Below, piece by piece: positions 37,806 to 54,364 of a stretch of DNA of 64,000 nt (positions are counted from its first letter, which is position 1; every line of letters begins with the position of its first letter). The notes below the pieces were generated by a model that saw only the letters and a list, made by a program, of their open reading frames with translations, searched no databases and was not told the origin of the DNA. Source of the stretch: Candidatus Gastranaerophilales bacterium. Its GTDB lineage: Bacteria > Cyanobacteriota > Vampirovibrionia > Gastranaerophilales > Gastranaerophilaceae. The DNA lies in assembly GCA_947587615.1 (NCBI GenBank), contig CANPYC010000001.1:1-64000 (forward strand). The letters are read 5' to 3'. Made by a program: the position numbers and the translations under genes.

Positions 37806-39344
37806 TTAATTGCCTGCTTTTTTCTCATCAAAAACTTTAATTAAATTGAATTTGTGACAATATTCAATCAAATCATCTTTAATTTCAGGCGCTAGGATAT
37901 AAAGAGCAATAATATTAGGTACGCACATTGCAATCATCATGGCATCCGTTATTTCAACAATTGATTTAACGTTCATAACAGAACCTATTACAATAAATAT
38001 GCAATAAATTAAATTAAACGTTAAGGCTCTTTTTTTACCTTCGCCGAATAAAAACGTCCATGCCTTTTGTCCATAGTACGCCCAAGAAATTAAAGTTGAA
38101 AGAGCGAATAATATTGCAATTAAAGATAAGATATAAGGGAAAAAGGGTATTACCGATTGAAATGCGTTTGAAGCAAGCTCAATTCCCGATATCTCCTTAC
38201 CTGCATGGGTACAAGCACCTGAAAAAACTATTGCAAATGAAGTAAATAAGCATAAAACTCCCGTTAAAAAGGTTTCTAATAAAGCAACAAAACCTTGAGA
38301 AACAGGTTCTTTTGTTTGAGCGGTAGCGTAAACTATTGCTGCCGCACCTGTTCCTGCTTCATTAGATTGAACGGAGCGCCTCAACCCTATTATTATTGTC
38401 CCAAAAACCCCGCCTGCAACGGCTGTCGGGTGAAAGGCTTCTCTTAAAATTAAAGCAAGAGCGCTCGGGATATTTACAATATTAGCTAGTATTACAATTA
38501 ATCCTGAAATAATATACATAGCGCACATTGTAGGTACTAAAACGGTTGTAATTTTTGCTATACTCTTAATTCCGCCAACAGTAACAAGACCGACAAGAAT
38601 TGCAACAAACAAACCGAAAATCCAGGCGCAACCGTGTAAAAAGCTATGCTCACCCCCTGTTATAAAAAGAATTTGATGAGTCGATTGGTTAATTTGTATC
38701 ATATTTCCGCCCGTAATACCACCGCCTATACAAAGCAGGGCGAATATTACAGACAAGGGTTGACCCAGCCATCTTAATTTTTTTCTTGTTAAACCATGGG
38801 CGATATAGTGCATTGGCCCGCCTGAAATCGAACCGTCTTCGTTAAATCTTCTATATTTAACAGCTAAAGTTGCTTCAACAAATTTAATCGACATCCCTAA
38901 AAGCGCACCTGCAAAAATCCAAAATGCAGCCCCCGGGCCTCCGATTGAAATTGATATTGCAACACCTGCGATACTTCCTATCCCGATTGTACCCGATAAA
39001 GCAGTTGCTAAAGCTTGCAGGGATGATACTTCACCGCTTCCCGAGTGATGGTGCATAGGTTTTATTATATTATCAATAGCATGCTTAAAGCCCCAAATAC
39101 ATATTCCTCTAAAGTATATTGTAAAGAATATTCCCGCAAATAAAATCCAAAAGATTATTAAAGGAACTTTTGTTCCAAAAAAGCTAATCGGAACAAAGAT
39201 AATTTTTGCAATAAAATCAGATATCGGTGCAATATTTTTATCAATAAAAGCGTCAACATTAAATGCAAATGCACTCTGTGTTAATAATTGCATTGATAAA
39301 AAAAGTGCAAATATAATACTCAAAAAACCTGATATCCTTTTCAT
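37806..39344 (-). CDS. AGCS-family alanine/glycine:cation symporter
   Basis: 512 residues with about eleven hydrophobic segments. GSGEVSSLQALATALSGTIG, GPGAAFWIFAGALLGM, and the sodium/amino-acid motif SNEAGTGAAAIVYATAQT identify the AGCS family. An N-terminal signal-like segment (MKRISGFLSIIFALFLSMQL) precedes the first conserved block. It likely imports alanine or glycine with sodium across the cytoplasmic membrane. Single gene, divergent from a secreted phosphoesterase-like gene. Confidence 0.93.
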   Translation of the reverse strand: MKRISGFLSIIFALFLSMQLLTQSAFAFNVDAFIDKNIAPISDFIAKIIFVPISFFGTKVPLIIFWILFAGIFFTIYFRGICIWGFKHAIDNIIKPMHHHSGSGEVSSLQALATALSGTIGIGSIAGVAISISIGGPGAAFWIFAGALLGMSIKFVEATLAVKYRRFNEDGSISGGPMHYIAHGLTRKKLRWLGQPLSVIFALLCIGGGITGGNMIQINQSTHQILFITGGEHSFLHGCAWIFGLFVAILVGLVTVGGIKSIAKITTVLVPTMCAMYIISGLIVILANIVNIPSALALILREAFHPTAVAGGVFGTIIIGLRRSVQSNEAGTGAAAIVYATAQTKEPVSQGFVALLETFLTGVLCLFTSFAIVFSGACTHAGKEISGIELASNAFQSVIPFFPYILSLIAILFALSTLISWAYYGQKAWTFLFGEGKKRALTFNLIYCIFIVIGSVMNVKSIVEITDAMMIAMCVPNIIALYILAPEIKDDLIEYCHKFNLIKVFDEKKAGN

Positions 39345-39492
39345 ACTTCAAACCCTTTCTTTTATACGGGGCAGAATTAATCTTAACAGGAATATTAAAA
39401 AATTACTATTTAAAATCCGAACATTTTAACATTTTGTAAATTAGTTACATTTTAAATTTATTTAAAAAAATTTTTATATTATTCTATAAACT

Positions 39493-40260
39493 ATGAAAAG
39501 GTTATTTTTAGTATTATGTTTCTTGGCTTTATTTTGTAGCGCCGCATTTGCTAAAGAGGTTAAATTTATTCATATAACGGATATTAACCTTAATACAAAT
39601 AATGCCTACAAGCTTCAAGAAACAATTAAAGAGATAAATTCTTATCCTGATATTGATTTTGTTGTTTTTGGCGGGAATAACATCTCAAAAACAAATATAG
39701 ATAATCTTAATACTTTTTTATATCTCCTTAAAAAAGTTAAGAAAAAATCAATTGTTTTATTGGGCTCATCCGACGTTTTAGCAAGCAGCGGAATTGATAA
39801 GAAATATTACTTAAAAAGAGTTAAAAGAGCGCTATTTTTGCGCCACAGCTCAAAAACAAACTATGTATTTGAAAAAAACGATATAATTTTTGTTGTAATG
39901 GATGGAGTTAAGCAATATTTTCAATCATCCAACGGCTACTACAATAAAAATGAGCTGAATTGGCTTGATAAAACCTTAACTAAATATGAAGGTAAAAATG
40001 TTGTAATTTTGCAGCATTTCCCAATTACTCAAACAAATTCAAATTGGATTCAAACAGCTAAGGTTGAAAATTATCTTGAGGTTTTATCAAAGCATAATAA
40101 TGTAAAAGTAATAGTTTCAGGGCATTACGGACAAAACGCTCAAAGCGATATAAATAATATAAAAAATATAATTACGCAAAGTTACTCAAAAGAAGGCGCT
40201 TATAATATTATCCAGCTTGATTTTGATGATAACTTTATAGGGACATATCTTGTAAAATAA
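39493..40260 (+). CDS. Secreted calcineurin-like phosphoesterase, degenerate
   Basis: 255 residues. Signal peptide MKRLFLVLCFLALFCSAAFA with cleavage after AFA. The metallophosphoesterase layout is traceable but metal ligands are eroded: FIHITDIN replaces DxH with only the first Asp kept, FGGNN replaces GD, LGSSDV replaces GNHD, while LQHFP and SGHYGQ keep two His positions. It is probably catalytically weak or inactive, or uses a reduced metal site. Envelope or extracellular location. It ends just before a convergent GT2 gene. Confidence 0.72.
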   Translation: MKRLFLVLCFLALFCSAAFAKEVKFIHITDINLNTNNAYKLQETIKEINSYPDIDFVVFGGNNISKTNIDNLNTFLYLLKKVKKKSIVLLGSSDVLASSGIDKKYYLKRVKRALFLRHSSKTNYVFEKNDIIFVVMDGVKQYFQSSNGYYNKNELNWLDKTLTKYEGKNVVILQHFPITQTNSNWIQTAKVENYLEVLSKHNNVKVIVSGHYGQNAQSDINNIKNIITQSYSKEGAYNIIQLDFDDNFIGTYLVK

Positions 40261-40273
40261 CCCTTATATTTAA

Positions 40274-41215
40274 TTATTTTCCATACTTTTCAATCTTGAT
40301 TTCATACTCAATTCCTTCTAAAAGCTTTCTGTTGATTGAGAATAAATCCCCTATAATTGCGCAAAGAAAACAAAAGAAGGATAAAATTAAAATAATTGCA
40401 CAAAGAATTAGAGATTGGATATGCCCAAAACCGTTATGATTAAAATAAAAATACAAAAACCTAAAACCTATCAATAAACCTATAAGCAATAGGCAAAAAG
40501 CGCTAATTAGAAAAAATTTTGCAGGTTTATAAATTATAAAAAATCTTAGAATTGTTTTTGCCTGTTTAAAAATATATTCAAAATTATTTTTAAATAATTT
40601 TGATTTTCTTTTTTTCTGTTCATTTACTTCAATATCAATGTTTTCAACGATTAATTTTTTTTCTCTTAATTGAATAATACTCTCAATTGTATAACTGAAT
40701 GAATTAAAAATATTTAAATTTAACAAAGCTTCTCGATTGTACGCTCGAAAACCGCTCGGGGCATCTTTAACGTCCGTATCCGTAATTGTTCTTACGACAA
40801 AAGAGCCGAAGTATTGCATTATTTTTTTAAAAAGAGAAAATGTTTTGATTTTTTTAATATCCCTTGCCCCGATAACAACATCCGCTTTATTTAACAATAT
40901 CGGCTGAATTAATTTTTCAATATCGCTTGCTTTATATTGGTTATCTCCGTCTAAATTAACAAGAATATCTGCCTTGTTTAAAAGCGCATATTTAACTCCC
41001 GAATTAAAAGCATTGGATAGTCCTTTATTTTTCTTAATTTTAATTAAATCAACTCCAAATTCAAGCGCTATATTTGATGTTTTATCACTTGAGCCATCAT
41101 CTATAACAACAACTTTAATTATATCAACTCCCCTAACAGATGCGGGAATTGATTTTAAAACCTCTGAAATACACTCTCCTTCATTAAAACAAGGGATTTG
41201 AACAACCAATTTCAT
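40274..41215 (-). CDS. GT2 glycosyltransferase with C-terminal membrane segments
   Basis: 313 residues. VVQIPCFNEGECISEVL, VIDDGSSDKTS, KNKGLSNAFNSGV and VNLDGDNQYKASD (metal-binding DxD region) define the GT2 domain; VKDAPSGFRAYNREA near 155 supports a polyprenyl-phosphate-type acceptor. Two hydrophobic segments lie at about 225-250 and 263-290. It probably attaches a sugar to an undecaprenyl carrier or works in surface glycan synthesis. No ribosome site is obvious before the ATG. Confidence 0.87.
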   Translation of the reverse strand: MKLVVQIPCFNEGECISEVLKSIPASVRGVDIIKVVVIDDGSSDKTSNIALEFGVDLIKIKKNKGLSNAFNSGVKYALLNKADILVNLDGDNQYKASDIEKLIQPILLNKADVVIGARDIKKIKTFSLFKKIMQYFGSFVVRTITDTDVKDAPSGFRAYNREALLNLNIFNSFSYTIESIIQLREKKLIVENIDIEVNEQKKRKSKLFKNNFEYIFKQAKTILRFFIIYKPAKFFLISAFCLLLIGLLIGFRFLYFYFNHNGFGHIQSLILCAIILILSFFCFLCAIIGDLFSINRKLLEGIEYEIKIEKYGK

Positions 41216-41381
41216 ATCAGTTATTATACAACAAACGAATGAAATTTAAAAAATTTTGTTTAAGAAAAATTTTTGGTGGTACGATTACTAAAGCGTAAAT
41301 AAAGCAAACTCAAACAAAGCAAATATAAATAAAGTAAACAATATACACACCATATAACTTTATTGTCATCCTTATTAGAGC

Positions 41382-41411
41382 CTATTGTATTAAATACAAT
41401 AGCTTTTTTTT
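41382..41411 (+). terminator. Orphan intrinsic terminator upstream of the repeat cluster
   Basis: CTATTGTAT (41382-41390) pairs with ATACAATAG (41394-41402) around TAA, followed by CTTTTTTTT. The neighbouring gene upstream is on the other strand, so on the plus strand this would end only an unrecognised transcript. Confidence 0.75.
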
Positions 41412-41531
41412 GACAAAAAATATTATTTTTGCGTTTTTTAAATATGCTAAAGAAAATGTATAAATTTTAAAAATCAAAAGCATACAAATAATCTAACTTT
41501 TAGCGCAAATTAAAATATTCAGCCCCACCTT

Positions 41532-41565
41532 TTACAAGGCTCTTTTTAACTTAACAGCCTTGTAA
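41532..41565 (+). promoter_or_regulatory. Hairpin in the leader of the first repeat gene
   Basis: TTACAAGGCT (41532-41541) and AGCCTTGTAA (41556-41565) form a perfect 10-bp stem with a 14-base loop, 45 bases before the ATG at 41611. No T-run follows, so it may be an RNA structure or an operator controlling the repeat genes. Confidence 0.6.
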
Positions 41566-41610
41566 TAATACATAAAACAACAAAAGATAAGGAAAATTAT
41601 AAAACAAACT

Positions 41611-42702
41611 ATGAAAATAAATAATATCAATAATTTTGCTAATTACAACAATTACAATATTCAAAATAAAACCCCCGATTTACAACAATCAAACCCAAAC
41701 AACAAACAGTATCAACTTTTAGCAAACCGGGGCTTCTTTTCGTCAATAAAACTAAGTTTTGCAAGGTATAAAATGCCTGTTTATGTAATAAACGAAAATC
41801 GTGAATGTAAAAAATTCGCTTCACAAAAAGAAGCAGCAGACTATATCGGTTGTGATTTTACAAGCATTTCACAAGTATTAAGAGGACATAATAAAACAAT
41901 AAAAGGTTATGCGGTTTTAAAGGCAGATGAAGTCGAAAAAACGGATGAAAATAACAGTACAATTATAGATGAAGAAAAAATAGAAAATGTTATAAAAAGC
42001 ATAAAAAGAAGTGTTTATGTAATTCAAAAAAACGGTGAGTACAGAAAATTTGACACACCCAAACAAGCAGCAGCCTACTTAGGCTGCGGCACGGGAAGCA
42101 TAAAAAAAGCGGTTGATTACCCGCACTATTTAATAAAAGGCTCTGCTGTTATCAACTCGGATGAAGTTGAAAAAACGGATAAAAACAATCAAACCGTTGT
42201 TGATAGAAAAAAAATAAAAACAATTGCAAAAAATATAGATAACAGCGTCTATGTTTTTGACAGACACGGAAGATATAAAAAATTTGCTTCAAGAAGCGAA
42301 GCAGCGCAATTTATAGGCTGTAAAAGAAATGCACTGAATCAAATTTTAAGTTCAAGAACAAAAAGCATAAAAGGATATGGAATAATAAGAGCCGTTGATA
42401 TTGAAATTGACGACGAAAACAATACAACTAAAATTGATTTAGAAAAATTAAAAGCCCTTGCAAGAGATATAAACAGGGCTCTATACATAATTAAAGACGG
42501 AAAATATCAAAGATTTGACTCACAAACGCAAGCTGCTAAAAACCATGTACTTAGCGAATCAAGTATTTCAAATTTATTAAACGGAAAAGTTAAAACCGTT
42601 TTAGGTTATAGGGCTGTAAGAGCAAAGGACGTTGAATTTTTGGATGAAGAAGGCAGAGTTGTTTTGGATGATAAAAAGTTTAAAGAAATTTTAGAGAGTT
42701 AG
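41611..42702 (+). CDS. NUMOD1-like tandem-repeat protein A (4 modules)
   Basis: 363 residues. An Asn/Gln-rich leader (1-54, ending FSSIKLSFARYK) is followed by four modules at 55-133, 134-211, 212-289 and 290-363. Each reads (V/I)Y(V/I)I-(D/N)-x-x-G-x-YKKF-x-S-xx-EAA-xx-(I/L)GC, then a variable stretch, then I-xx-VL-xG, KTIKGY-x-(V/I)-(I/L)-(K/R)A-x-(D/E)-(V/I)E and a linker helix (D-xx-KI-xxI). The front half matches the NUMOD1/IENR1 helix-turn-helix found beside GIY-YIG and HNH homing nucleases, but no nuclease domain is present. Likely DNA binding by inference. B starts three bases after its stop. Confidence 0.8.
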   Translation: MKINNINNFANYNNYNIQNKTPDLQQSNPNNKQYQLLANRGFFSSIKLSFARYKMPVYVINENRECKKFASQKEAADYIGCDFTSISQVLRGHNKTIKGYAVLKADEVEKTDENNSTIIDEEKIENVIKSIKRSVYVIQKNGEYRKFDTPKQAAAYLGCGTGSIKKAVDYPHYLIKGSAVINSDEVEKTDKNNQTVVDRKKIKTIAKNIDNSVYVFDRHGRYKKFASRSEAAQFIGCKRNALNQILSSRTKSIKGYGIIRAVDIEIDDENNTTKIDLEKLKALARDINRALYIIKDGKYQRFDSQTQAAKNHVLSESSISNLLNGKVKTVLGYRAVRAKDVEFLDEEGRVVLDDKKFKEILES

Positions 42703-42705
42703 ACA

Positions 42706-43542
42706 ATGAAAATAAACGGCATTATTAACAATTTTATAAGATATAACAATCCATCCAAACAAAAAACAATTAAAACAAATAACAATAAAAATTCAAAAGA
42801 ATTAATAAATTTTACAAGAAACAAAATCCCTGTTTATGTTATTGATAAAAACGGAGATTATAAAAGATATAATTCCGAAACCGAAGCAGCAGCCGCAATT
42901 GGAGTAACAATGAATTCTGTTTCATCGGTACTTAGCTATAAGTCGATAAAAACAAAAGGTTTTAGTATAGAAAAAGCAACAAAACTTGAAAAGAAAAATA
43001 AAGACGGTTCAATTACTCTTGATACAAATAAAATAAAAGAAATTGCAAAAAATATTAACGATAGTATTTATGTTGTTGATAAAAAAGGGAATTATAAAAA
43101 ATTTTCTTCAAGAAAAGAGGCGATGGAGGCTATCGGTTGCAGTTATGGCGCCATTACCCATATATTAAGAGGAAACTATGGTGCAAAAACAATAAAAGGT
43201 TATAGCGTTATTGAAGCAAGAGAGCTTGAAACTAAAGATAAAAAAGGCAATATAACAGTTAATAAAGAAAAAATTAAAGAACTTATTAAAAACCTGAACA
43301 AAGGTTATTATACAATAGCTCCGGATGGAAAATATCAAAAATATTCTTCTCAAGTTGAATTGGCACAAAGCTTTGGAGTTAATCAAAGTCTTGTTTGTCA
43401 AGTTTTAAACGGCAGAATTAAAACCCTAAAAGGTTATAGAATAATAAGAGCATCTGACATTGAAACTTTTGATAAAAATAACAATCTTATTATAGACAAT
43501 AAAAAACTGAATAAAATTCTAAAAATAACCTATAAAGGATAA
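42706..43542 (+). CDS. NUMOD1-like tandem-repeat protein B (3 modules)
   Basis: 278 residues. A basic, Asn-rich leader (1-40, with ELINFTRNK) precedes modules at 41-119, 120-199 and 200-278. Module 2 is closest to consensus (YVVDKKGNYKKFSSRKEA, IGCSYGAITHIL, KTIKGYSVIEA). The variable four residues after the I-G-C/V are TMNS, SYGA and NQSL. The ATG comes three bases after the stop of A with no ribosome site, so translation is probably coupled. No catalytic motif. Probable DNA binder by analogy with NUMOD1; function otherwise unknown. Confidence 0.78.
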   Translation: MKINGIINNFIRYNNPSKQKTIKTNNNKNSKELINFTRNKIPVYVIDKNGDYKRYNSETEAAAAIGVTMNSVSSVLSYKSIKTKGFSIEKATKLEKKNKDGSITLDTNKIKEIAKNINDSIYVVDKKGNYKKFSSRKEAMEAIGCSYGAITHILRGNYGAKTIKGYSVIEARELETKDKKGNITVNKEKIKELIKNLNKGYYTIAPDGKYQKYSSQVELAQSFGVNQSLVCQVLNGRIKTLKGYRIIRASDIETFDKNNNLIIDNKKLNKILKITYKG

Positions 43543-43546
43543 AGGA

Positions 43547-44680
43547 ATGAATATACAAAATATTTTTAATTTATACAACTGCAACAGATATTCTAATAAA
43601 TTTCAACTTAATTTCAAAAGATTAAAAAAACCCGTCTATGTTATTGATGAAAACGAGGATTATAAAAAATTTAACTCTGAAGCGGAAGCTGCGCAATATA
43701 TGAATGTTTATGCGTCATATTTCAGCACATTACTAAGCGGACAAAGAAGAACATTAAAAAATTATGCTTTTGCAAAAGCCTCGGAAGTTGAAAAATATGA
43801 CAAAAATTCTACACCGGTTGTTGATAAAAAACAAATTAAAGAATTTGCAAATTTAATAAAAAAGAAAAATTCAAAAGCTCAATCATCTCTAAACGAAAGT
43901 GCCACAAAAGAAACAACGCCAAATCACGCAACAGGGCAAAATTCAACCCCGCAGGGAATTTATGCAATAAAATCAAACGGACAATACCAAAAATTTGCTT
44001 CAGTGGAAGAAATTGAAAAAATTTTAGGTTTCAAAAAAGAATCCGTTAATTTAGTTTTGTATAAGGATTTAAAAGCAATATTTGATTACACTTTCACAAG
44101 AGCAAGCGAGGTTGAAACAGAAAACAAAGAAGGTAAATTTTTAGCTGACGAAGTAAAAATTGATAACTTTGCTCAATCAACTTTTAGTAAAAATATTTAT
44201 ATTATTGATAAAAAAGGAAATTATAAAAAATTTGACTCACAAGCAGACGCAGCAAAATTTTTAGATTGCTCAAGAGAAATGGTTAGAAGAGCACTGCATA
44301 ACAAAGTAAGAGCAAAAGGCTATTTAGTTGTTAAGGCAAGCGATGTAGAAACTAAGCTTGTAAATAGCGGGAAAGTTGTTGACAGAACAAAAATTACAAA
44401 AATATTAAGAGATAATATTTTAAAAGAACTGAATAAAAATTATTATATTATTTATAAAAACGGAAAATATGAAAAGTTTACTTCGCAAGCACAAATGGCA
44501 GCTGCTCTAAATTGTTCTCAGACCCGTGTTTTTGCGCTCATTAACAAAGGAGGGATTAGCAAACAAAAAGAATTTGCCATTCTAAAAGCTTCAGAAATAG
44601 AACGTATCAAAGAAAACTATGAAACAGAAATTGATAAAAAGGCTATTGAAAACATTATAAAAATCTTACAGAAAAATTAA
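43547..44680 (+). CDS. NUMOD1-like tandem-repeat protein C (4 modules)
   Basis: 377 residues. A short leader (1-28, with FQLNFKRLKK) precedes modules at 29-106, 137-215, 216-297 and 298-377. A 30-residue Ser/Thr/Asn-rich linker separates modules 1 and 2 (107-136), the only such insertion in the set. Variable residues at the presumed recognition position are YASY, KKES, SREM and SQTR. AAAGGA, overlapping the stop of B, serves as ribosome site; the gene starts four bases after B. A, B and C form one operon. Confidence 0.78.
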   Translation: MNIQNIFNLYNCNRYSNKFQLNFKRLKKPVYVIDENEDYKKFNSEAEAAQYMNVYASYFSTLLSGQRRTLKNYAFAKASEVEKYDKNSTPVVDKKQIKEFANLIKKKNSKAQSSLNESATKETTPNHATGQNSTPQGIYAIKSNGQYQKFASVEEIEKILGFKKESVNLVLYKDLKAIFDYTFTRASEVETENKEGKFLADEVKIDNFAQSTFSKNIYIIDKKGNYKKFDSQADAAKFLDCSREMVRRALHNKVRAKGYLVVKASDVETKLVNSGKVVDRTKITKILRDNILKELNKNYYIIYKNGKYEKFTSQAQMAAALNCSQTRVFALINKGGISKQKEFAILKASEIERIKENYETEIDKKAIENIIKILQKN

Positions 44681-44729
44681 ATTCAAAAAATCTTATGATA
44701 AATTTTTATTTCAGGAGCTTTTTAAAAAT

Positions 44730-46595
44730 ATGAAAATCAATTTTTTAAATTTTTACAATATCAAAAATCAATTAAATAATAATCAAAAAACGACTTTGTC
44801 TTCCGTAAAAAATTTTAATATTACGCTTCAAAAGTCTAATGATAGCTTTACGCTTCAAAATCTTAATTTTAGAAGCAGAAAGTTTGATAAAACAAACTCT
44901 AAACAAACAATTTCTCAAACCGATAAATCAAAAGAACAGACTAATAACGGGGTATATATTGCCTATCAAAACAGAAGCTTCAAGCGTTTTAATTCAATGT
45001 ATGAAGCAATGGATTATACTGACGTATGCAGAAAAGAAAAAGGTTTAAACAACCCTATTATTATAAAAGCAAAATTTGTTGAAAGTGTAAATTCTAAAGG
45101 AGATTTGATTGTTGATAGAGAAAAATTGATGGAAATTATAGACAATCAAAGATTAAAAAACGCATTTTTTTTATTTGATAAAAACGGAGTATGCAAATAT
45201 TTTTTAAGCAGGGAAAAACTTGAAGAATATATATTAAAACGTCAACAAGAAGAACAGTTCAAATTAGGTATTGATTTTATTTTTGAAAAGGGTGCAAAAG
45301 TTCCTTTTAAAAGCAGTGACGGAAAAATAAGTATAAAAAAAGAATACCGTGAAAAAATTTTAAACATATTAAATAAATCTTCTAATCCAAAAAGCAGTAC
45401 TTCTTTAGATAATAGAATTTATATGATTAGAAAAGATATGACTTTTGAAGTGTTTAATTCAACTAACGAAGCTGCAATTGCTCTTAATATAAATGAAAAC
45501 AATATAAAAAGAAGCCTTCGGGGAATATGCAGCCCTAAGATAAATGCGGCTTTTGTTTATGCTTGTGATGTTGAATATAAAGACGAAAACGGAGTTTCGC
45601 ACCCCGATTTAGATAAAATTGACAGATTGTCCAAAGGGGTTGATGACAGAAGCTTTTATCTGATTGCTAAACTCGGATTTTTTAAAAAATTTGAAAACAT
45701 AAAAGAAGCTGCTTTATTTTTAAATATAGACCCAATCAATGTTTTAAGAGCCTTAAGCGGCGCTACGCACTCAACTAAAGGTTATATTATAAAAGAAGCA
45801 AACGAGGTTGAAAAAGTAGTAAAAAGAGGTGTTGTTGAAGTTGACACAGATAAAATTCTTGAATACGCAAAAGAAATTGACAACGATTATTGCGTAATTT
45901 CAGATGATAGAGATTTTCAAATTTTTACACGTCTTATAGACGCAAAGAAATATAAACAAGAAAAACTTTCACAAAACAAAAAAGCTCAGGTTGTTCCCGC
46001 TTCATTACTTAAAACACTAACACAAGAAGGAGAAATTGTTTTTGATACTAAAAAAATTGAAGAATATTTAAAAAATTCAACTGATGCAATATATGTAATT
46101 GATTATAAGGGGGCATATAAAAAATTTCCGTCAATAAAAGAAGCAGCTTTATATATAGGCTGCAAGGAAAGTTACATACAAGATATACTAAACGGTAAAA
46201 CTTTATCCTTAAAAGGTTTTACAGTAGCTCCCGCTTATATACCCGAATATTACAAAGAAGATAAAACGCTATCTGTCAACAGAGAATTGATAGAAAGATA
46301 TAGAGAAAAAATAGACAAAAGTTTATATGTAATAAAAGAAGATGGGAGCTATAAAAAAGTTAACTCGCCCAAAGAAGCAGCGCAATTTATAGGTTGTCAA
46401 ACGCAAAACGTTCGCTCCCTTCTGAGAAACGAACGACTTACAACAAGCAGCGCATCAATAATAAACGCAAGATTTGTTGAAAGAATTGATGAAAAAGGTA
46501 ATATAACGATTGATAAAAGCGCCATAGATGAACGTATTAAAGAAATGATTAGCGCAAAAGAAAGAAAATCAAAGTTTCTTAAAAAACCAAAATGA
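44730..46595 (+). CDS. NUMOD1-like tandem-repeat protein D (7 modules)
   Basis: 621 residues, the longest of the set. A 73-residue leader (MKINFLNFYNIKNQL, later QNLNFRSRKF) precedes modules at 74-144, 145-228, 229-306, 307-385, 386-452, 453-530 and 531-621. Modules 1, 2 and 5 are eroded: they keep the opening strand and closing helix but lose the EAA-xx-IGC helix-turn-helix. Modules 6 and 7 are near consensus. The C-terminus is a basic tail (KERKSKFLKKPK). AGGAG precedes the ATG by twelve bases, a long spacing. Mixed intact and decaying modules suggest duplication and drift. Confidence 0.78.
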   Translation: MKINFLNFYNIKNQLNNNQKTTLSSVKNFNITLQKSNDSFTLQNLNFRSRKFDKTNSKQTISQTDKSKEQTNNGVYIAYQNRSFKRFNSMYEAMDYTDVCRKEKGLNNPIIIKAKFVESVNSKGDLIVDREKLMEIIDNQRLKNAFFLFDKNGVCKYFLSREKLEEYILKRQQEEQFKLGIDFIFEKGAKVPFKSSDGKISIKKEYREKILNILNKSSNPKSSTSLDNRIYMIRKDMTFEVFNSTNEAAIALNINENNIKRSLRGICSPKINAAFVYACDVEYKDENGVSHPDLDKIDRLSKGVDDRSFYLIAKLGFFKKFENIKEAALFLNIDPINVLRALSGATHSTKGYIIKEANEVEKVVKRGVVEVDTDKILEYAKEIDNDYCVISDDRDFQIFTRLIDAKKYKQEKLSQNKKAQVVPASLLKTLTQEGEIVFDTKKIEEYLKNSTDAIYVIDYKGAYKKFPSIKEAALYIGCKESYIQDILNGKTLSLKGFTVAPAYIPEYYKEDKTLSVNRELIERYREKIDKSLYVIKEDGSYKKVNSPKEAAQFIGCQTQNVRSLLRNERLTTSSASIINARFVERIDEKGNITIDKSAIDERIKEMISAKERKSKFLKKPK

Positions 46596-46687
46596 TAAAT
46601 TATCAAAAATATTCTTTAGGAGTTTTTTAAAAATATAAAATAAAAACACAAATTAAAACCACAAAACCAAAGGAAATTAAAACAAAT

Positions 46688-48028
46688 ATGAAAATAAACA
46701 GCATTATCAATTTTAGCAAAATATATAACAGTAATATTCAAACACTTCAAACAAAAAGCAAAAAAGAACAAGATAATAACAATAACAATAAAATCGGCTT
46801 GGATAGCCTAAAGGGAAATCTTTTTTCTTCAATAAAGCTGAGTTTTAAAAGTAAACCAAAAGTCCCCGTATATGTCATCGACAAAGACGGTTCTTGTAAA
46901 AAATTCGCTTCTCAAAAAGAAGCGGCAGCTCATCTTGACAGTTACAGCTCGGATGTCAGTCAGGCAGCAAGAAAAGGTTATACCATAAAAGGCAAATCAA
47001 TAGTTAAAGCAAGCGAAATTGAACAAATTGATAAAGATGGGAATATTGTTGTTGATAAAGATAAAATAAAGGAAATTATAAAAAACTCCGATAAAAGACT
47101 ATACGCAATAAAATATAACGGAGAATATAAAGAATGCTCTTCTCAAAAAGAAGCAAGAGAATTTATAGGCTGCGATAAAAGTAATTTAAGAGCTTTGATA
47201 TACGGCACAATCAACACTCTAAACGGTTATACGGTTATAAAAGCATCGGAAGCGGAAACTCTTGACGACAAGGGAGAAACGGTTATAGACGTTGAAAAAA
47301 TTGAAAAAATTGCTCGAAACATAGATAAGAGAATATATATCATATCAAAAGAAGGCGTATACAGGCAATGTTCCAATCAATCCGAAGCAGCGCAAATTAT
47401 AGGAACGGATCCAAGCAATGTTTCAGCTGTGTTAAACAATAGATCACGCACAATCAAAGGCTTTTTTGTAATAAAAGCAAGCGATATCGAAACAAAAGAC
47501 AAAGAAGGCAGAATTGTTACGGATGAAAAAAAGCTTAGCGAAATTATGAAAAATTTAGATAAAAATATATATGTTTTTAATCAATACGGCGAATATAAGA
47601 AATTTGCTTCAAGAAAAGAAGCAGCGCAATTCATAGGCTGTAATATTTGCAGTATAGGACAGGTATTAAACGGATCGGCTAAAACAATTAACGGCTACAG
47701 CATTGTTAGAGCAAGCGAAGTTGAAGAAAGAAATCAAGCAGGAACAATTAAAGTTGATGAAGAAAAAATCAAAGAACTTTCAAAAAAAATTAACAGAGGC
47801 GTTTATGTAATATCGCAAGACGGAACATATAAAAAATATTCAACCCCAAAGGAAACTTCAAGGGCTTTAAATATATCTGCAAAAAGCATTATAAACGTTT
47901 TAGCACACAAGGCAAAAACAACGGGCGGTTTTAGAATGGTTAGAGCAGCAGATATTGAAACATTGGATAACAACGGTAATGTTGCTGTTGATGAAGAAAA
48001 ATTGAGAGAAATTTTAAGCAAAAGATAA
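46688..48028 (+). CDS. NUMOD1-like tandem-repeat protein E (5 modules)
   Basis: 446 residues. The leader (1-58) has a run of Asn and ends FSSIKLSFKSKPK, nearly the same as protein A. Modules lie at 59-136, 137-214, 215-292, 293-370 (each exactly 78) and 371-446. Variable tetrapeptides after the I-G-C position: YSSD, DKSN, DPSN, NICS, SAKS, on a strongly conserved framework. This is the most regular protein of the six and the best model for the module. The untranslated leader (AAAGGAAATTAAAACAAAT) resembles that of A. No nuclease motif. Confidence 0.8.
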   Translation: MKINSIINFSKIYNSNIQTLQTKSKKEQDNNNNNKIGLDSLKGNLFSSIKLSFKSKPKVPVYVIDKDGSCKKFASQKEAAAHLDSYSSDVSQAARKGYTIKGKSIVKASEIEQIDKDGNIVVDKDKIKEIIKNSDKRLYAIKYNGEYKECSSQKEAREFIGCDKSNLRALIYGTINTLNGYTVIKASEAETLDDKGETVIDVEKIEKIARNIDKRIYIISKEGVYRQCSNQSEAAQIIGTDPSNVSAVLNNRSRTIKGFFVIKASDIETKDKEGRIVTDEKKLSEIMKNLDKNIYVFNQYGEYKKFASRKEAAQFIGCNICSIGQVLNGSAKTINGYSIVRASEVEERNQAGTIKVDEEKIKELSKKINRGVYVISQDGTYKKYSTPKETSRALNISAKSIINVLAHKAKTTGGFRMVRAADIETLDNNGNVAVDEEKLREILSKR

Positions 48029-48119
48029 TTTTTAGAAGTTTTAAACATAATGCGAGGTTAGCTTCAAATTTTAAATTCTGCCTCGCTTTAAATCTCTATA
48101 CTACCGAAGAATAAAACAA

Positions 48120-49058
48120 ATGAAAATATATTCCTTTAAAAATCAAAATTTTCTTTTAAATTCAAGAAAAATTAACAATAATAAATTGCAAAATATTACC
48201 AATTATAAAGAGGACAAAGTAAAATATTGCAATATGTCCTTAGTATATTTTCAAAATATAAGCTTTGGCATAAAATCTATGCCAATTTGCGCTTATAAAG
48301 AAGATGGAACATATAAAATATTTACAAGTATTTGCGAAGCTGCAAAAGAGCTTGGTTGTAAGCAGCCGAATATTTCAATAGCTTTAAAGAAAGGCTATAA
48401 AGTAAAAGATTACAGAATAATCGAGCTTAATAAAGTATCTTACGAGGATGAAAACGGTTTAAAGATAGATGAAAATAAAATTTTAGAATTATCAAAAAAA
48501 TTTGAAAAAAACGAAGTTTATATAATAAACAAAGACGGCGAATGTAAAAGTTATAAGAGTATAGCAGGCGCAAAACGATGTATAAAAAATGTTGATATTT
48601 ATAAAATATTAAACGCAAAAACACATATCGGCAACATTACCGCAGCAAAGCCCCATGAGGTTATATCATACAATAATCAAGGTAATAAAACGATTGACAA
48701 TAATAAACTTAATAAAATTTTAAAAAGGTTCAGCTATAACCCTAACGGAATTTATGTCATATTTCAAGACGGAAGCTGTAAAAAATATAAAAATCAAACA
48801 GAAGCTGCAAAAGCCATGAATGTAACACATCAATGCATAAGCAATGCTTTGAGCAGTAAAAAAGATAAACAAAAAAGGGTGAAAAAATGTTTGCTTTTAA
48901 AAGCAAGTGATATTGAGAGAATTGATAAAAACGGCGATATTGAACTTAATATTGATTTAATTGCAAAAAAGCTTGAAAAATATTCAATGGTGTTTAGGGA
49001 AGATGTTTTTGAAAATTTAGCAAAAGAATTAAACGGAAAACACATGGGGTTATGTTGA
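48120..49058 (+). CDS. NUMOD1-like tandem-repeat protein F (3 modules)
   Basis: 312 residues. Leader 1-53 ends FQNISFGIKSM. Modules lie at 54-131, 132-209 and 210-312. Module 2 has a shortened, eroded helix-turn-helix (AGAKRCIKNVDIYKIL); modules 1 and 3 keep EAAKELGCKQPNIS and EAAKAMNVTHQCIS. A 20-residue C-terminal extension follows the last module and ends HMGLC. It is the most diverged member and closes the cluster. No ribosome site is clear; GAAGAATAAAACAAATG resembles the leaders of A and E. Confidence 0.75.
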   Translation: MKIYSFKNQNFLLNSRKINNNKLQNITNYKEDKVKYCNMSLVYFQNISFGIKSMPICAYKEDGTYKIFTSICEAAKELGCKQPNISIALKKGYKVKDYRIIELNKVSYEDENGLKIDENKILELSKKFEKNEVYIINKDGECKSYKSIAGAKRCIKNVDIYKILNAKTHIGNITAAKPHEVISYNNQGNKTIDNNKLNKILKRFSYNPNGIYVIFQDGSCKKYKNQTEAAKAMNVTHQCISNALSSKKDKQKRVKKCLLLKASDIERIDKNGDIELNIDLIAKKLEKYSMVFREDVFENLAKELNGKHMGLC

Positions 49059-49809
49059 AAATTCGTATAATTGATTGTTTTGAGCTTTAGTTTTACTCGT
49101 GTTTAGAAACAATAAATCCTTGACAATCTTAAGACTTGAAACACGTACCCTAAACGTCATTGAAACAATACAGCCTCCATGTCAAAATTAAATAACCATA
49201 ATCAGATATACTCATAGCAATCTTGCCGAACGGTTAAGCGTTCTAAGAATATGTCATTGCAAGAACGGGTTATTTTTAAAATCCGTATGGCAGGCTTTAG
49301 TTTAGCGTTTTATTGAAGTTTAACCTTTGACAATCTTACTAAAACCCGTTTTGTCCCCGCATGTCATTAGCAAGGGAGAAGTAATTAAAAGGATGTTTAA
49401 AAGCCATAGGGTGGGTTTTCGCCACCATGCTCTAAGTTAAAATCAAAACCCGCAAGTTAGGTTTTAGAATGGTACCCTGCTATCAGCCTGTGCAATCTTA
49501 CCGAATTTCCGCTCTCCATGTCATTGCAAAAGGAATTATTGATAAAAGTATGAAAATAAAAATCCGCAGGGTAGATTTCAGTCCACCGTTTTATAAAGGT
49601 AACCCATGGTAATCTTGCTGAATATGTACATGTTTCAAATGTAACGGCAGACTAAAGTCTACCATACAGATATCGGTTTTAGTTGCTTCGCAAGCCCATC
49701 AAACATACAGGCTCACTAACATTAAGCTATTGTAAATTTTTGTTAAATATTTCTCAAGTTTAACAAAAAATGAACGATTATATTAGCAAAAAGATGAGGA
49801 TGGCGTAAA
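49059..49809. other. 750-bp non-coding tract with dispersed repeats
   Basis: No credible gene. It contains a 42-bp repeat shared with 1403-1445 (at 49433-49474), CAGCCTGTGCAATCTTACC (49484-49502), a diverged copy of the GCAGGGTAGATTTCA palindrome arm (49565-49586) and a GGCAGACTAAAGTCTACC palindrome (49647-49664). Variants of CAATCTT(G/A)CC and ATGTCATT(G)CAA recur several times. It looks like a stack of degenerate copies of one intergenic element next to the repeat-protein cluster. Confidence 0.7.
49433..49474. repeat. Dispersed intergenic repeat, copy 2
   Basis: About 42 bp nearly identical to 1403-1445, sharing the core CCCGCAAGTTAGGTTTTAG and the preceding TAAGTTAAAA. Followed, as in copy 1, by nearby CAGCCTGTG-CAATCTT and GACTAAAGTCT elements in a different order. 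Confidence 0.75.
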
Positions 49810-50724
49810 ATGACTAATGAAACAAGAAAACAAGAAAATCTATCGTGTGAAATAGAGAACGAAGCTTCAAAAATTGACAAAGAAGCAAAAGAGAATGCGC
49901 TTAAAAATATTATTGTTGAAAATATTTCAGATAAAACAAACGAAGACAATTTAAAAAACAAACCTCAAGAAAATCAATGGGAATCATCTTTAGCAATAAA
50001 AAATTACAACAAGAGTAAAATTGAAGAAAAAAGAAGACGATATAGACAGGATTGTTTTGGTTTACTTGCGAACGAACTAACGGAAGAAGATAAAGACAAC
50101 TACGAAGACACAATTTTAACCGTTAAAGCTTTTAATAAAAAGATTGTTGAAAACGAAGTTTCAAAAGGTGTTATTCAAAAACAATACGGCGACTTCATTG
50201 AAACAAGTTTAACTTTGTATGACGGCTTAACTTATAGTCAATTAACGGATGAACAAAAAAATCAGTTGGAAAAATATGAACAGATAATGAAATTAATTGA
50301 TGAGTTAAATTTAAGAGCCATAGTTACACCTATTTTTGAAATTACAAATGAAATCAGGATTCAAAAAGTTAACTCGAGCAAGGATGAAAATAAACAAGCA
50401 CAACAAGATAAAACAGACAATGAAATTAAAGAAAAAGAAAAAATAATTGAAGATAAAATCTCGACACTTCAAGAAGAAAAGCTGCAAGAAGTTGAAGAGC
50501 AGCTAAATATCGAAGCGCAAGATTTATCGGATGAGCAGGAAGAAATTAAAGAAGATGACTCAAGCAATTTAGCTCAAGATGCTATAAATAATGTTTTTGA
50601 ACAACTGAATAAAATACAGTTGCCAAGAAGCGTTGAAATTATTCAAGAAGAAGACAATGCTCAAACCGAACTTAATGAATCAAAAGAGGAAGAAGACTTG
50701 TCCGACCTTTTAAGAATTGAATAA
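49810..50724 (+). CDS. Acidic coiled-coil hypothetical protein
   Basis: 304 residues, not recognised. Very rich in Glu, Lys, Asn and Asp. A central helical part (about 65-190) includes RRRYRQDCFGLLANELTEED, and the C-terminal third is a Gln/Glu-rich coiled coil (KEKEKIIEDKISTLQEEKLQ) ending in an acidic tail. No signal peptide or membrane segment. It is preceded by the repeat tract and followed 41 bases later by mutS2 on the same strand. Ribosome site GAGGA is eleven bases before the ATG. Confidence 0.65.
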   Translation: MTNETRKQENLSCEIENEASKIDKEAKENALKNIIVENISDKTNEDNLKNKPQENQWESSLAIKNYNKSKIEEKRRRYRQDCFGLLANELTEEDKDNYEDTILTVKAFNKKIVENEVSKGVIQKQYGDFIETSLTLYDGLTYSQLTDEQKNQLEKYEQIMKLIDELNLRAIVTPIFEITNEIRIQKVNSSKDENKQAQQDKTDNEIKEKEKIIEDKISTLQEEKLQEVEEQLNIEAQDLSDEQEEIKEDDSSNLAQDAINNVFEQLNKIQLPRSVEIIQEEDNAQTELNESKEEEDLSDLLRIE

Positions 50725-50765
50725 TTTTTAAAATATATAAGCTGTTTTTCTGATAAAATTATCTT

Positions 50766-53150
50766 ATGAATAATTCACAAGATAATTTTATTGTTTCATC
50801 AAATAATTCATTATCCGAACATCACTTAGCTCTTGAATTTGATAAGGTTTTATTAAACCTCTCAAGGTATGCTAATTCAACTTTAGCTAAAAATAAGTGC
50901 TTAAATCTTGATGTGTATTCAAAAAAAGCTCAAATTGAATATGAATTGAAGCTTGTTGATGAAGCAAAAAGCATTATTGATGATAGCCAAAATTCTGTTC
51001 CTATTGATGAAATAGAAGATATTGAGCAAATATTTAAGGAACATTATTTTAACATTGATGAAATTATAAACCTTGCAAAAAATCTTCAAAGTGCAAGATT
51101 AACTAAAAATTTTATCTCTAAATTTCAAGGTATGTCAAATATCAATGAAATTATAAAAAATATTTATATAAATAAAGAATTTGAAGATGAAATTTTTCAA
51201 ACTTTTGATAATGAATTGAATGTTGTTGACTCTGCTTCAATTGAGCTTAAATCTCTAAGAGCATCACTTCGGGATAACAAAGAAAATTTAAAAAATGCGG
51301 TTAATAACCTGCTTCAAAATCATTCTTTTGTTGATAATCTTCAAGATACAATAGTTTCAACAAGAGATAATCGCCCTGTTTTTCAGGTTAAGGCAAGCTG
51401 TAAAAATAAAGTAGCGGGAATTGTTCACGATATTTCATCAACAAATTTAACCTATTTTATTGAACCTGCACAATTAATTCCTTTATCAAATAAAATCAGA
51501 CAGATTGAAATTGAAATTCAAGCTGAAATTGAGCGAATTTTAGCAAAATTATCCTCAAAATTAAAAGATATAAAAGATGAGCTAAAGAAAAATCAAGAAA
51601 TTTTAGAAAAAATCGACATAATTTTTGCAAAAGCAAAATATTCAATTCATCTTAGTGCGCAAAGTGCCGAGTTGACGGATGAAAAAATTATTGATATTCA
51701 AGCAATGCGCCATCCTCTACTTGTTGAAGTTAAAGAAGATGTTGTTGAAAACGACTTTCAGCTGGGTAAAAACTACAAGTGTCTTTTAATAACGGGCTCA
51801 AATACGGGAGGTAAAACCGTTGCCCTAAAGTGCGCAGGATTAATGGTTTTAATGACAAAAGCAGGGCTTCATATTCCTTGTTTGGGTGCTAGGATTTATC
51901 CTTTTTGCGATATATTTTGTGATATTTCAAAAGAACAAAGTTTAGAGCAGGGTTTTTCAACTTTTTCCGCTCATATTAAAAATATAGCAAATATTTTAGA
52001 TAATATTGGCTCTAATTCTTTAATTTTACTTGATGAACTGGGTTCAGGTACAGACCCAACGGAAGGCGCAAGTTTATCAAGGGCAATATTGAATTTTATT
52101 AAAGAAAAAGAAGCTTTAGCTGTTATTACAACGCACTTAGGAGAATTAAAAACTTTAAAATATAATGACAACTGGTTTGAAAATGCCACGGTTTTATTTG
52201 ACATAGCAAAACTTAAACCTTGCTATAAGCTGATTGTTGGAATGTCGGGGACATCTAACGCAATAGATATATCTTCTCAATTGGGGCTAAATCCTTCAAT
52301 AATTGAAAAAGCAAGAGAATTTTTGCTTGATAAAAATGATGATACTTCAAAATTATTTTTAGAAATTGAAAAAACAAGCGCAAATTTAATTAAAAAAGAG
52401 CAAGAAGCCCTGTCTTATCTTGATAAAACAAAATTATCAAAAGAAGAATACGATAAAAAACTTCAAGAACTCAAGCAAAACAAGAAAAAATCTCTTGAAA
52501 ACTTTAAAAAGAAATTCCAAACGCAACTGGAAGCTGCAAGAGAAGAAATAAAACAAGCGGTTGATGAAATAAGAAAAGAAAAATCTCTTAAAGTCGCAAT
52601 GCGCTCATATAACCGCTTATCAAAAATTGAAGCAAAAATCAGAGAAGAATTTTCAACAACCGATGATGAGCTTGCTCAAAAATTTGTTGATTTAAACCCT
52701 GATGAGCTAAAAATCGGTCAAAGCGTTTTGATTAAAAAGCTTGAACAGGTTGTAATACTGGATAGCCTGCCTGATAAAAAAGGTTATGTTGAAGTTAGAA
52801 TTGGTAATATTAAATCTAAAATTCATTTATCAAAGCTTGCAAAAACCGATAAAAAAGTTGCAAGTCACCTAAAAAAAGTAAATGTTTCTTTTGATAACCA
52901 TGATAATTTATTATCCCGCCTTGATTTAAGGGGTATGAGGGTATTGGAAGCAATTGAATATCTTGATGAAAAGCTTGATAAGGCAAGTTTAAGAGGTTTA
53001 AATCAAATAACAATTATCCATGGGTATGGTACGGGAGCGCTAAAACAAGCTGTCAGCGACTATTTAAAACATTCTCCTTATGTTGCAAAGTTTAGATACG
53101 GGGATGAAACAGAAGGTAGAGACGGCGTTGTTATAGTAGATTTATTATAA
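50766..53150 (+). CDS. mutS2: MutS2-family ATPase/endonuclease
   Basis: 794 residues. LEFDKVLLNLSRYANS at the N-terminus, the MutS core with ITGSNTGGKTVALK (Walker A, near 340), LLDELGSGTDPTEG (Walker B), TTHLGELK, then a long coiled coil (about 520-620) and the C-terminal Smr nuclease domain with LDLRGMRVLEAIEYLD and IIHGYGTGALKQAV. The full architecture is intact. MutS2 suppresses recombination or rescues collided ribosomes rather than mismatch repair. It sits directly downstream of the repeat-protein region and upstream of an AlkD-like gene. Confidence 0.95.
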   Translation: MNNSQDNFIVSSNNSLSEHHLALEFDKVLLNLSRYANSTLAKNKCLNLDVYSKKAQIEYELKLVDEAKSIIDDSQNSVPIDEIEDIEQIFKEHYFNIDEIINLAKNLQSARLTKNFISKFQGMSNINEIIKNIYINKEFEDEIFQTFDNELNVVDSASIELKSLRASLRDNKENLKNAVNNLLQNHSFVDNLQDTIVSTRDNRPVFQVKASCKNKVAGIVHDISSTNLTYFIEPAQLIPLSNKIRQIEIEIQAEIERILAKLSSKLKDIKDELKKNQEILEKIDIIFAKAKYSIHLSAQSAELTDEKIIDIQAMRHPLLVEVKEDVVENDFQLGKNYKCLLITGSNTGGKTVALKCAGLMVLMTKAGLHIPCLGARIYPFCDIFCDISKEQSLEQGFSTFSAHIKNIANILDNIGSNSLILLDELGSGTDPTEGASLSRAILNFIKEKEALAVITTHLGELKTLKYNDNWFENATVLFDIAKLKPCYKLIVGMSGTSNAIDISSQLGLNPSIIEKAREFLLDKNDDTSKLFLEIEKTSANLIKKEQEALSYLDKTKLSKEEYDKKLQELKQNKKKSLENFKKKFQTQLEAAREEIKQAVDEIRKEKSLKVAMRSYNRLSKIEAKIREEFSTTDDELAQKFVDLNPDELKIGQSVLIKKLEQVVILDSLPDKKGYVEVRIGNIKSKIHLSKLAKTDKKVASHLKKVNVSFDNHDNLLSRLDLRGMRVLEAIEYLDEKLDKASLRGLNQITIIHGYGTGALKQAVSDYLKHSPYVAKFRYGDETEGRDGVVIVDLL

Positions 53151-53164
53151 ATTATTGTTGAATT

Positions 53165-53196
53165 ATGATTGAAGAAGTAAATGATTGAAGAAGTTA
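53165..53196 (+). repeat. 16-bp tandem duplication at a start codon
   Basis: ATGATTGAAGAAGTAA (53165-53180) is followed at once by ATGATTGAAGAAGTTA (53181-53196), differing in one base. The first copy starts a 7-codon frame that ends at TGA 53186-53188, overlapping the real start of the AlkD-like gene in another phase. Confidence 0.85.
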
Positions 53197-53864
53197 AGCA
53201 GGAACTTTTAAATTTAAAAGATGAGAAATATAAAAAATTTTCAAGCTCTCTTTTACCTGATACAGATAATATTATAGGTATAAGACTGCCGATTTTAAGA
53301 CGTATTTCAAAAAGAATAGCTAATAGTTGTTATGAGCGGTTTTTTAATGAAAATGATGATGAGTTTTTTGAATTAACTATGCTTGAAGGAATGATAATAG
53401 GAAATTTAAATCTTGAATTTGATGAAATAAAAAAATATATTGAAAAATTTATTTTAAAAATTAATAACTGGTCAGTTTGTGATAGTTTCTGTTGTTCTTT
53501 AAAAATCGTTAAAAAGAATAAGAAAAAAGTAAAAATTTTTTTAGAAAAATATTTTAAATCAAATAAAGAATTTGAGCTTCGTTTTGCTTATGTAATTATG
53601 CTTAGCTACTTTTTTGATGATTATAATTATATGATTGAAAAAATCGCCTGCTTTAATAATGAAAAGTACTATTCTAAAATGGCTGCGGCGTGGGCATTAT
53701 CAATTGTTTTTATGAAACATTTTGATAATATTTTTAATGATATTAAAAATTTAAAAATTCATCCCTGGGTTTTAAATAAAGGTATTCAAAAAGCGCTTGA
53801 ATCATACAGACTCAATAAAGAGCAAAAAGAAAAACTACGACAAATGAAGGCTTTTTTAAATTAG
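53181..53864 (+). CDS. AlkD-like DNA alkylation repair HEAT protein
   Basis: 227 residues, all helical. IGIRLPILRRISKRIA, FELTMLEGMIIG, WSVCDSFCCSLK, RFAYVIMLSYFF and AAAWALSIVFMKHF match the HEAT-like repeats of the AlkD/DNA alkylation repair family. The WSVCDxF and AxAW positions carry the Trp and Asp residues typical of the alkyl-base pocket. It may excise or recognise alkylated purines. The gene follows mutS2 by 30 bases on the same strand. A 16-bp tandem duplication of the start creates a short overlapping upstream frame. Confidence 0.85.
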   Translation: MIEEVKQELLNLKDEKYKKFSSSLLPDTDNIIGIRLPILRRISKRIANSCYERFFNENDDEFFELTMLEGMIIGNLNLEFDEIKKYIEKFILKINNWSVCDSFCCSLKIVKKNKKKVKIFLEKYFKSNKEFELRFAYVIMLSYFFDDYNYMIEKIACFNNEKYYSKMAAAWALSIVFMKHFDNIFNDIKNLKIHPWVLNKGIQKALESYRLNKEQKEKLRQMKAFLN

Positions 53865-53929
53865 AAAAATAAGATATAATATTGATTATTTGAATTATTG
53901 GACTTTTATTTAACTTCGAGGAGAAAACA

Positions 53930-54364
53930 ATGTCTTATTATATTTTATGGGGCTCAATAGGTGTAATATTTTTAATACTTGAGATGTTTACACCGGGGCT
54001 GTTTTTTCTTAATTTTTCAATAAGTGCATTTATTTGCGCAATTTTAGCGTTATCAATTAAAGCTTTAACAATGACAAATTTGATAATTTTCTTTTGCGTT
54101 TTATCGGTTATTTTAATTTTTACCCTTCGCCCAATGCTTATCAAAAGAGGTAATAACCAAACAAAAGAACAAAGCGGAATTGAAGCAAAATACGTTGGAC
54201 AAATCGCAAAAGTTGTTGAAAATGTTGATAAAGAAAAAGGCGCTATTTCAATTTATGATGAAAGATGGCAGGCAAGAAACATTGAAGAAGGTGTAATTGA
54301 AGCAGGTTGCCAGGTTGAAATAGTCGGATACGAAAGTATAGTTATGAAAGTTAAAAAAGTATAA
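53930..54364 (+). CDS. NfeD-like membrane protein (short form)
   Basis: 144 residues. Two or three membrane segments (about 5-25, 27-45, 50-68) are followed by a C-terminal OB-fold-like domain (YVGQIAKVVENVDKEKGAIS, EVIEAGCQVEIVGYE). This is the short NfeD class, which partners SPFH proteins. GAGGAG precedes the ATG by seven bases. The SPFH gene starts 18 bases after the stop, forming the classic NfeD-stomatin pair thought to organise membrane microdomains. Confidence 0.88.
   Translation: MSYYILWGSIGVIFLILEMFTPGLFFLNFSISAFICAILALSIKALTMTNLIIFFCVLSVILIFTLRPMLIKRGNNQTKEQSGIEAKYVGQIAKVVENVDKEKGAISIYDERWQARNIEEGVIEAGCQVEIVGYESIVMKVKKV

Follow-up and report, generated by a model that had tools for sequence, protein, structure and literature searches.

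Helix-turn-helix units of the NUMOD1/I-HmuI type hold the nuclease on its target in homing endonucleases, and the known NUMOD modules serve nucleases. The 64,000-nucleotide stretch of a Candidatus Gastranaerophilales genome analyzed here (the window) raises the question of what such modules do when they appear to make up proteins of their own. An earlier note on this DNA, made from the sequence alone, described six consecutive plus-strand genes at 41611-49058 encoding 363, 278, 377, 621, 446 and 312 residues, and both the coordinates and the lengths agree with the list of open reading frames. The products consist largely of modules of about 78 residues, 3-7 in tandem per protein. The note had counted 4, 3, 4, 7, 5 and 3 of them, 26 in all; a profile built from the cluster's own modules recovered these counts, with 25 clear modules scoring 48-108 bits, but the second stretch of array protein 4 (aa 145-219) scored only 4 bits; this one is doubtful, and the total of 26 is therefore a maximum.

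The six genes share one plan, an N-terminal leader followed by modules. Array protein 1 (41611-42702, plus strand; 363 aa) provides an example of the leader (41611-41775, plus strand, aa 1-55; MKINNINN...SSIKLSFARYKM), after which four modules occupy aa 56-363. Array protein 2 (42706-43542, plus strand; 278 aa) has a leader at aa 1-41 (42706-42828) and three modules at aa 42-277, and array protein 3 (43547-44680, plus strand; 377 aa) a leader at aa 1-28 (43547-43630) and four modules at aa 29-376, with a linker at aa 107-136 inside the module region. The largest member, array protein 4 (44730-46595, plus strand; 621 aa), carries a leader at aa 1-73 (44730-44948) and six modules plus the doubtful one; its modules at aa 74 and aa 386 lack part of the recognition-helix region. 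Array protein 5 (46688-48028, plus strand; 446 aa) combines a leader at aa 1-59 (46688-46864) with five modules at aa 60-446. Array protein 6 (48120-49058, plus strand; 312 aa), the most diverged of the six, has a leader at aa 1-54 (48120-48281), three modules at aa 55-290 and a short C-terminal tail. All of the leaders lie on the plus strand. The view that each protein is almost wholly repeat therefore needs amending: tandem modules do fill most of every protein, but each also bears a disordered N-terminal leader that the note did not mention.

Because the intergenic spacing is short (3 bp between genes 1 and 2, 4 bp between genes 2 and 3, and 49-92 bp between the others), the six genes appear to form an operon-like unit. 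When operator repeats were sought at the cluster, a single inverted repeat upstream of gene 1 was found and nothing else. This repeat (TTACAAGGCTCTT / AACAGCCTTGTAA; 41532-41565, no strand assigned) lies 45 nt upstream of the first start codon, has 13-nt arms that are 92% complementary around a loop of 8 nt, and is a candidate operator or attenuator only. A surplus of terminator-like stems on the minus strand was also considered as a set of signals and judged a coding artefact, since most are intragenic and several repeat the KKF-SQKEAA coding stretch. In the own genome, of which 400 kb were also sampled as stretches, all matches to array protein 5 fall inside the 41611-49058 cluster. Elsewhere in this genome NUMOD1 matches are weak and all under the cut-off, and the three such places that were fetched contain no module array.

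The proposed resemblance of the module front to NUMOD1/IENR1 is borne out by Pfam. All six proteins exceed the cut-off for PF22083, the I-HmuI NUMOD-like family (37-88 bits versus 27), and five of the six exceed that for NUMOD1, PF07453 (27-46 bits versus 22.8), with array protein 5 just under it at 19.7 bits. The PF22083 E-values for proteins 1 to 6 are 9.8e-24, 2.1e-25, 4.4e-17, 9.8e-24, 2.5e-25 and 2e-9, and those for NUMOD1 are 9.6e-8, 6e-9, 7.6e-12 and 5.1e-6 for proteins 1, 3, 4 and 6; values reaching 2e-25 exclude a chance resemblance. The match does not extend over the whole repeat. The module is a composite of a NUMOD-type helix-turn-helix part of about 46 residues, which the module profile aligns with residues 123-169 of I-HmuI (E 1.8e-5), and a conserved part of about 30 residues beyond that alignment, which refines the earlier note's description of the module. 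This second half, residues 47-78, has conserved A50, E54, G60 and D65 and serves the array as its constant connector.

The earlier note had held that the lack of a significant NUMOD1/IENR1 hit together with a predicted fold without a helix-turn-helix would speak against this assignment. An AlphaFold2 model of modules 3-5 of array protein 5 (47330-48025, plus strand) contains one helix-turn-helix per module, in the order hairpin, helix-turn-helix, strand, short helix, hairpin, helix; the beta-hairpin and helix-turn-helix account for roughly the first 46 residues, and the remaining elements for residues 47-78. The model has a mean pLDDT of 90 and a pTM of 0.65, so that the single module is well defined, whereas its angle to the next one probably is not. 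In a full-length model of array protein 2 the modules are ordered, and the leader falls below pLDDT 50 over residues 1-36 with one gap. The best PDB match of the three-module model in Foldseek is I-HmuI (1u3e, probability 0.97), specifically its C-terminal DNA-binding portion, although the E-value is no better than 3.6e-3, and the use of a three-module chain as query keeps the TM-scores low. A Paulinella DNA-binding protein is also matched, with probability 0.92, and among viral structure models homing endonucleases dominate the matches, with E-values down to 2e-12. We regard the homology of the modules to NUMOD1/I-HmuI units as secure.

No catalytic domain accompanies these modules, as the note had observed: none was found in the six cluster proteins with Pfam, PHROGs, NCBIfam or PADLOC, and matches to models called 'HNH' or 'HEase' are confined to the non-catalytic module region. 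Defence-system models other than generic endonuclease or helix-turn-helix ones do not match the six proteins; the matches obtained are HEase over the non-catalytic part and a weak mad1 over the helix-turn-helix only. A nuclease in close homologues had been named as a finding that would count against the idea. We collected 56 array proteins with 271 modules, usually 2-9 per protein, some of them near-identical syntenic partners. All 56 were covered by the module profile, which leaves few stretches of more than 50 residues outside modules, and the 47 scanned with Pfam, from three genera of the family, contain no HNH, GIY-YIG, EDxHD or LAGLIDADG domain; 45 of these match PF22083 and 33 match NUMOD1 with E up to 1e-3. 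Rfam finds no intron or other RNA family from 38000 to 54000 in the window, and phage, plasmid and viral collections hold no relative of the arrays at BLAST level. The arrays thus lack what defines a homing endonuclease, namely a catalytic domain and residence in an intron, an intein or a free-standing mobile gene. They also lack the defining repeat of TAL effectors, with about 34 residues, paired helices and a two-residue code.

Sought in Gastranaerophilales relatives, the same architecture turned up in a second genus of the family and, within the genus itself, in 11 of the 28 genomes; the arrays are evidently dispensable, since the other 17 genomes gave no match. Across the family, 25 of 383 genomes and 5 of 41 genera contain module matches, and in a sample of the phylum the 9 genomes with matches (of 386) all belong to this family. 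A profile search of GTDB contigs with an alignment of ten modules returned 12 loci; eight of them bear titles naming Gastranaerophilales, Melainabacteria or Cyanobacteria, and the titles of the other four are unspecific. We regard the arrays as lineage-restricted; those collected come from genera of one Gastranaerophilales family. Their location and number vary between species, and their flanks are ordinary chromosomal genes. Sample names in some of the GTDB contig titles point to the gut (rabbit, goat colon).

Several relatives depart from the simple plan. The syntenic partners L105 and L106 both contain some 200 residues of disordered, lysine-rich sequence; in L105 (9604-11040) this segment lies between modules at aa 103-311, is histone-tail-like, 209 residues long, and has a pI of 10.1. 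Beside arrays there are also small proteins of 121-137 aa (L105:7110-7475, L106:14165-14578, L168:1263-1628), each with the arrays' leader and a single, very degenerate module (10-11 bits).

Where syntenic pairs could be compared, the arrays are under purifying selection: the dN/dS values are 0.14, 0.37, 0.35 and 0.22, above most flanking genes and well below 1. Modules within one protein share only about 33% identity, and nevertheless 28 of 31 find their closest counterpart at the equivalent position in the syntenic protein, so both the identity and the order of modules are kept. The modules are old, distinct and held in order, not reshuffled. Most modules in the window have their nearest relatives inside the same cluster, which suggests that the cluster probably expanded by local gene duplication. 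When modules are compared with one another, the positions of the recognition helix rank among the most variable. Rapid evolution of this helix, as expected of diversifying specificity, was looked for and not seen: between orthologues these positions are no more variable than the remainder. Variability across modules but not between orthologues fits stable, module-specific roles.

Charge is distributed unevenly within the module. The helix-turn-helix half has a mean charge of +2.4 (module values being non-independent data points), compared with -0.2 for 46-residue pieces of other proteins in the same loci, and the connector half has a mean of -1.5. The pI exceeds 8 in 48 of the 56 arrays, with an array median of 9.1 versus 7.0. 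These values, like the lysine-rich segment of L105 and L106, are consistent with DNA binding and are no proof of it. Homology, predicted fold and charge support DNA binding indirectly. DNA binding, sequence specificity, action by occupancy and a cytoplasmic location are all inferred. The variable recognition helix fits a determinant of specificity, and equally fits any exposed surface.

The persistence of similar arrays under selection in one family points to an undescribed family of probable multi-finger DNA binders. Our preferred explanation, to which we assign a probability of roughly 0.55, is that the arrays are lineage-restricted polydactyl DNA-binding proteins derived from a domesticated and amplified homing-endonuclease module. 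A helix-turn-helix of the NUMOD1/I-HmuI type would have split off from any nuclease, fused to the connector of about 30 residues, and then been amplified in tandem, usually to 2-9 copies. In every module the recognition helix and the basic loop would sit on DNA, allowing one protein to grip an extended stretch, and the bound array may act as a transcriptional or replication regulator, a nucleoid organiser or a roadblock against foreign DNA. The functions proposed in the note, a programmable array, a nucleoid protein or a decoy, are likewise hypothetical. By analogy, each array might further read a composite site module by module in colinear fashion, with species-specific targets, possibly in other cells, acquired through gene expansion; we hold this extension to be doubtful. 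If true, bacteria would possess, in these arrays, an equivalent of polydactyl zinc fingers or TAL effectors that is assembled from parts of homing endonucleases.

Two competing accounts keep the modules and change what they do. They may have been repurposed as a repeat scaffold for protein or RNA, not DNA, an idea encouraged by the connector half, conserved and acidic as in a repeat solenoid, and by the poor conservation of recognition-helix residues. Against this idea, the helix-turn-helix core, basic loop and basic net charge are all retained, and the closest solved relatives are DNA binders; we consider it rather unlikely. The arrays might instead be functionless, decaying remnants of homing endonucleases or another selfish element. 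Their patchy distribution, the degenerate stretch in array protein 4, and the G172 genome, where module matches on contig 101 (L107) lie in separate reading frames and one crosses a TAA stop, all point that way, and the change of frame and the stop suggest that this particular array has decayed. Against a general decay stand the lack of a nuclease in all 47 homologues, frames open for up to 792 aa, purifying selection in the syntenic pairs tested, conservation of leader and module order, and the lack of any intron or other RNA family in the region. The neighbours are moreover housekeeping genes, with no mobile-element family among the matches listed (25 of 94 families). Decay is thus the least probable of the accounts weighed here.

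A further alternative concerns the leader, which might be an export signal directing the arrays to bind DNA in another cell, by analogy with TAL effectors. Leaders usually start M-[KR]-[IV] or similarly and carry, just ahead of the first module, a short motif ending in [hydrophobic]-[S/T/N]-F; a loose pattern finds this motif, with its F at most 22 residues ahead of the modules, in 44 of the 54 arrays with a usable N-terminus. The conservation of this leader in most arrays and its disorder in the model of array protein 2 would suit export. Non-array proteins of these genomes with such a start have the motif within their first 72 residues in 12 of 62 cases (controls: 3.3 expected from shuffles, 1 of 54 in the following stretch). 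The leader type also occurs on a GAPDH-like protein, a DHH protein and a HAD hydrolase, and in looser form on an alpha-amylase/branching-enzyme-like protein in the window, a distribution over enzyme-like proteins that argues against a dedicated export signal. Since it recurs on unrelated proteins, metabolic enzymes included, we read it as a lineage-wide N-terminal tag, and it could be a sorting tag of the Gastranaerophilales lineage. Export is conceivable because the genome encodes flagellar-type export machinery, with two full FlhA/SctV genes, of which one belongs to a divergent FliE-FliF-FliH-FlhA locus that scores below the flagellar FlhA and FliF cut-offs and is possibly a second flagellar-type export system. 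The export genes look flagellar and not like an injectisome, though, and no VirB4 was found; on balance export seems improbable. The leader that these proteins share also poses a question of its own, that of protein sorting in this lineage.

Leaders of the form M[KR][IV] followed by [hydrophobic][S/T/N]F plus G/A/S were seen on unrelated proteins at 14523-16802 and 61199-62191 in the window and, elsewhere, at L036:17440-18003, L045:14702-15904, L103:5254-6495 and L166:8062-9774. The two full FlhA genes and one FlhA-like C-terminal part lie in L199 and L200 (contig 14) and L201 (contig 11) of the own genome.

Polydactyl C2H2 zinc-finger proteins, which are eukaryotic, combine diverged modules in a fixed order with lineage-specific expansion. 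The arrays may work in a similar way, although their fold is unrelated and they have no zinc ligands. Among the closest known systems are I-HmuI and related HNH and GIY-YIG homing endonucleases with NUMOD1/IENR1; the C-terminal helix-turn-helix of I-HmuI is homologous to roughly the first 46 residues of the module. Those enzymes carry one or a few modules beside a nuclease, whereas the arrays have usually 2-9 modules and no nuclease; in the arrays each helix-turn-helix is followed by a conserved connector of about 30 residues, a leader is present, and the setting is one of bacterial housekeeping genes. In I-HmuI-like enzymes the contacts with the target extend over as much as 30 bp (PMC3943268). 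The helix-turn-helix unit also resembles in fold sCTP-23166 of Paulinella (PDB 8b6e), one of the short chromatophore-targeted proteins, a nuclease-free expanded family whose more than 200 members bind double-stranded DNA (PMC12176269); these, however, are encoded by eukaryotic nuclear genes and imported into an organelle, and at less than 90 aa they are too short for such arrays. TAL effectors, STAR, pTERF and MOON proteins likewise consist wholly or largely of tandem DNA-reading units (PMC11417379), but their repeats are 34-residue TALE units, mTERF-like or others, with none reported as NUMOD-based, and the array module of about 78 residues with a hairpin and helix-turn-helix differs from the TAL effector repeat. 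The main text of that survey mentions neither NUMOD nor helix-turn-helix repeats, and arrays of this kind may have escaped it, since repeats reaching a protein end were dropped (PMC11417379). In keeping with the note's remark that no system of this make-up was described, we found no description of nuclease-free tandem NUMOD proteins in the open-licence literature, which was the scope of the search.

Modular DNA readers are few, comprising zinc fingers, TALE-type repeats and a handful of others. If our reading is correct, a family of diverged, ordered NUMOD-type modules alone would add to the natural sources of extended DNA recognition and show clearly how a host takes over part of a selfish element. 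The arrays offer a short list of proteins to assay for binding, from a gut lineage that genetics has hardly touched.

A 750-bp stretch without a listed gene or an Rfam match follows the cluster (49059-49809). No clean empty site was found in the relatives compared, where the genes flanking the cluster are non-adjacent because MutS2 sits there by the counterpart of the gene at 1524-4634. In the window, MutS2 (50766-53150) and this 1036-aa helicase-like gene lie 46 kb apart, whereas in six relatives fetched around MutS2 the two adjoin directly or are separated by 1-2 small genes. This arrangement is compatible with an inversion, one end of which would lie next to the array cluster.
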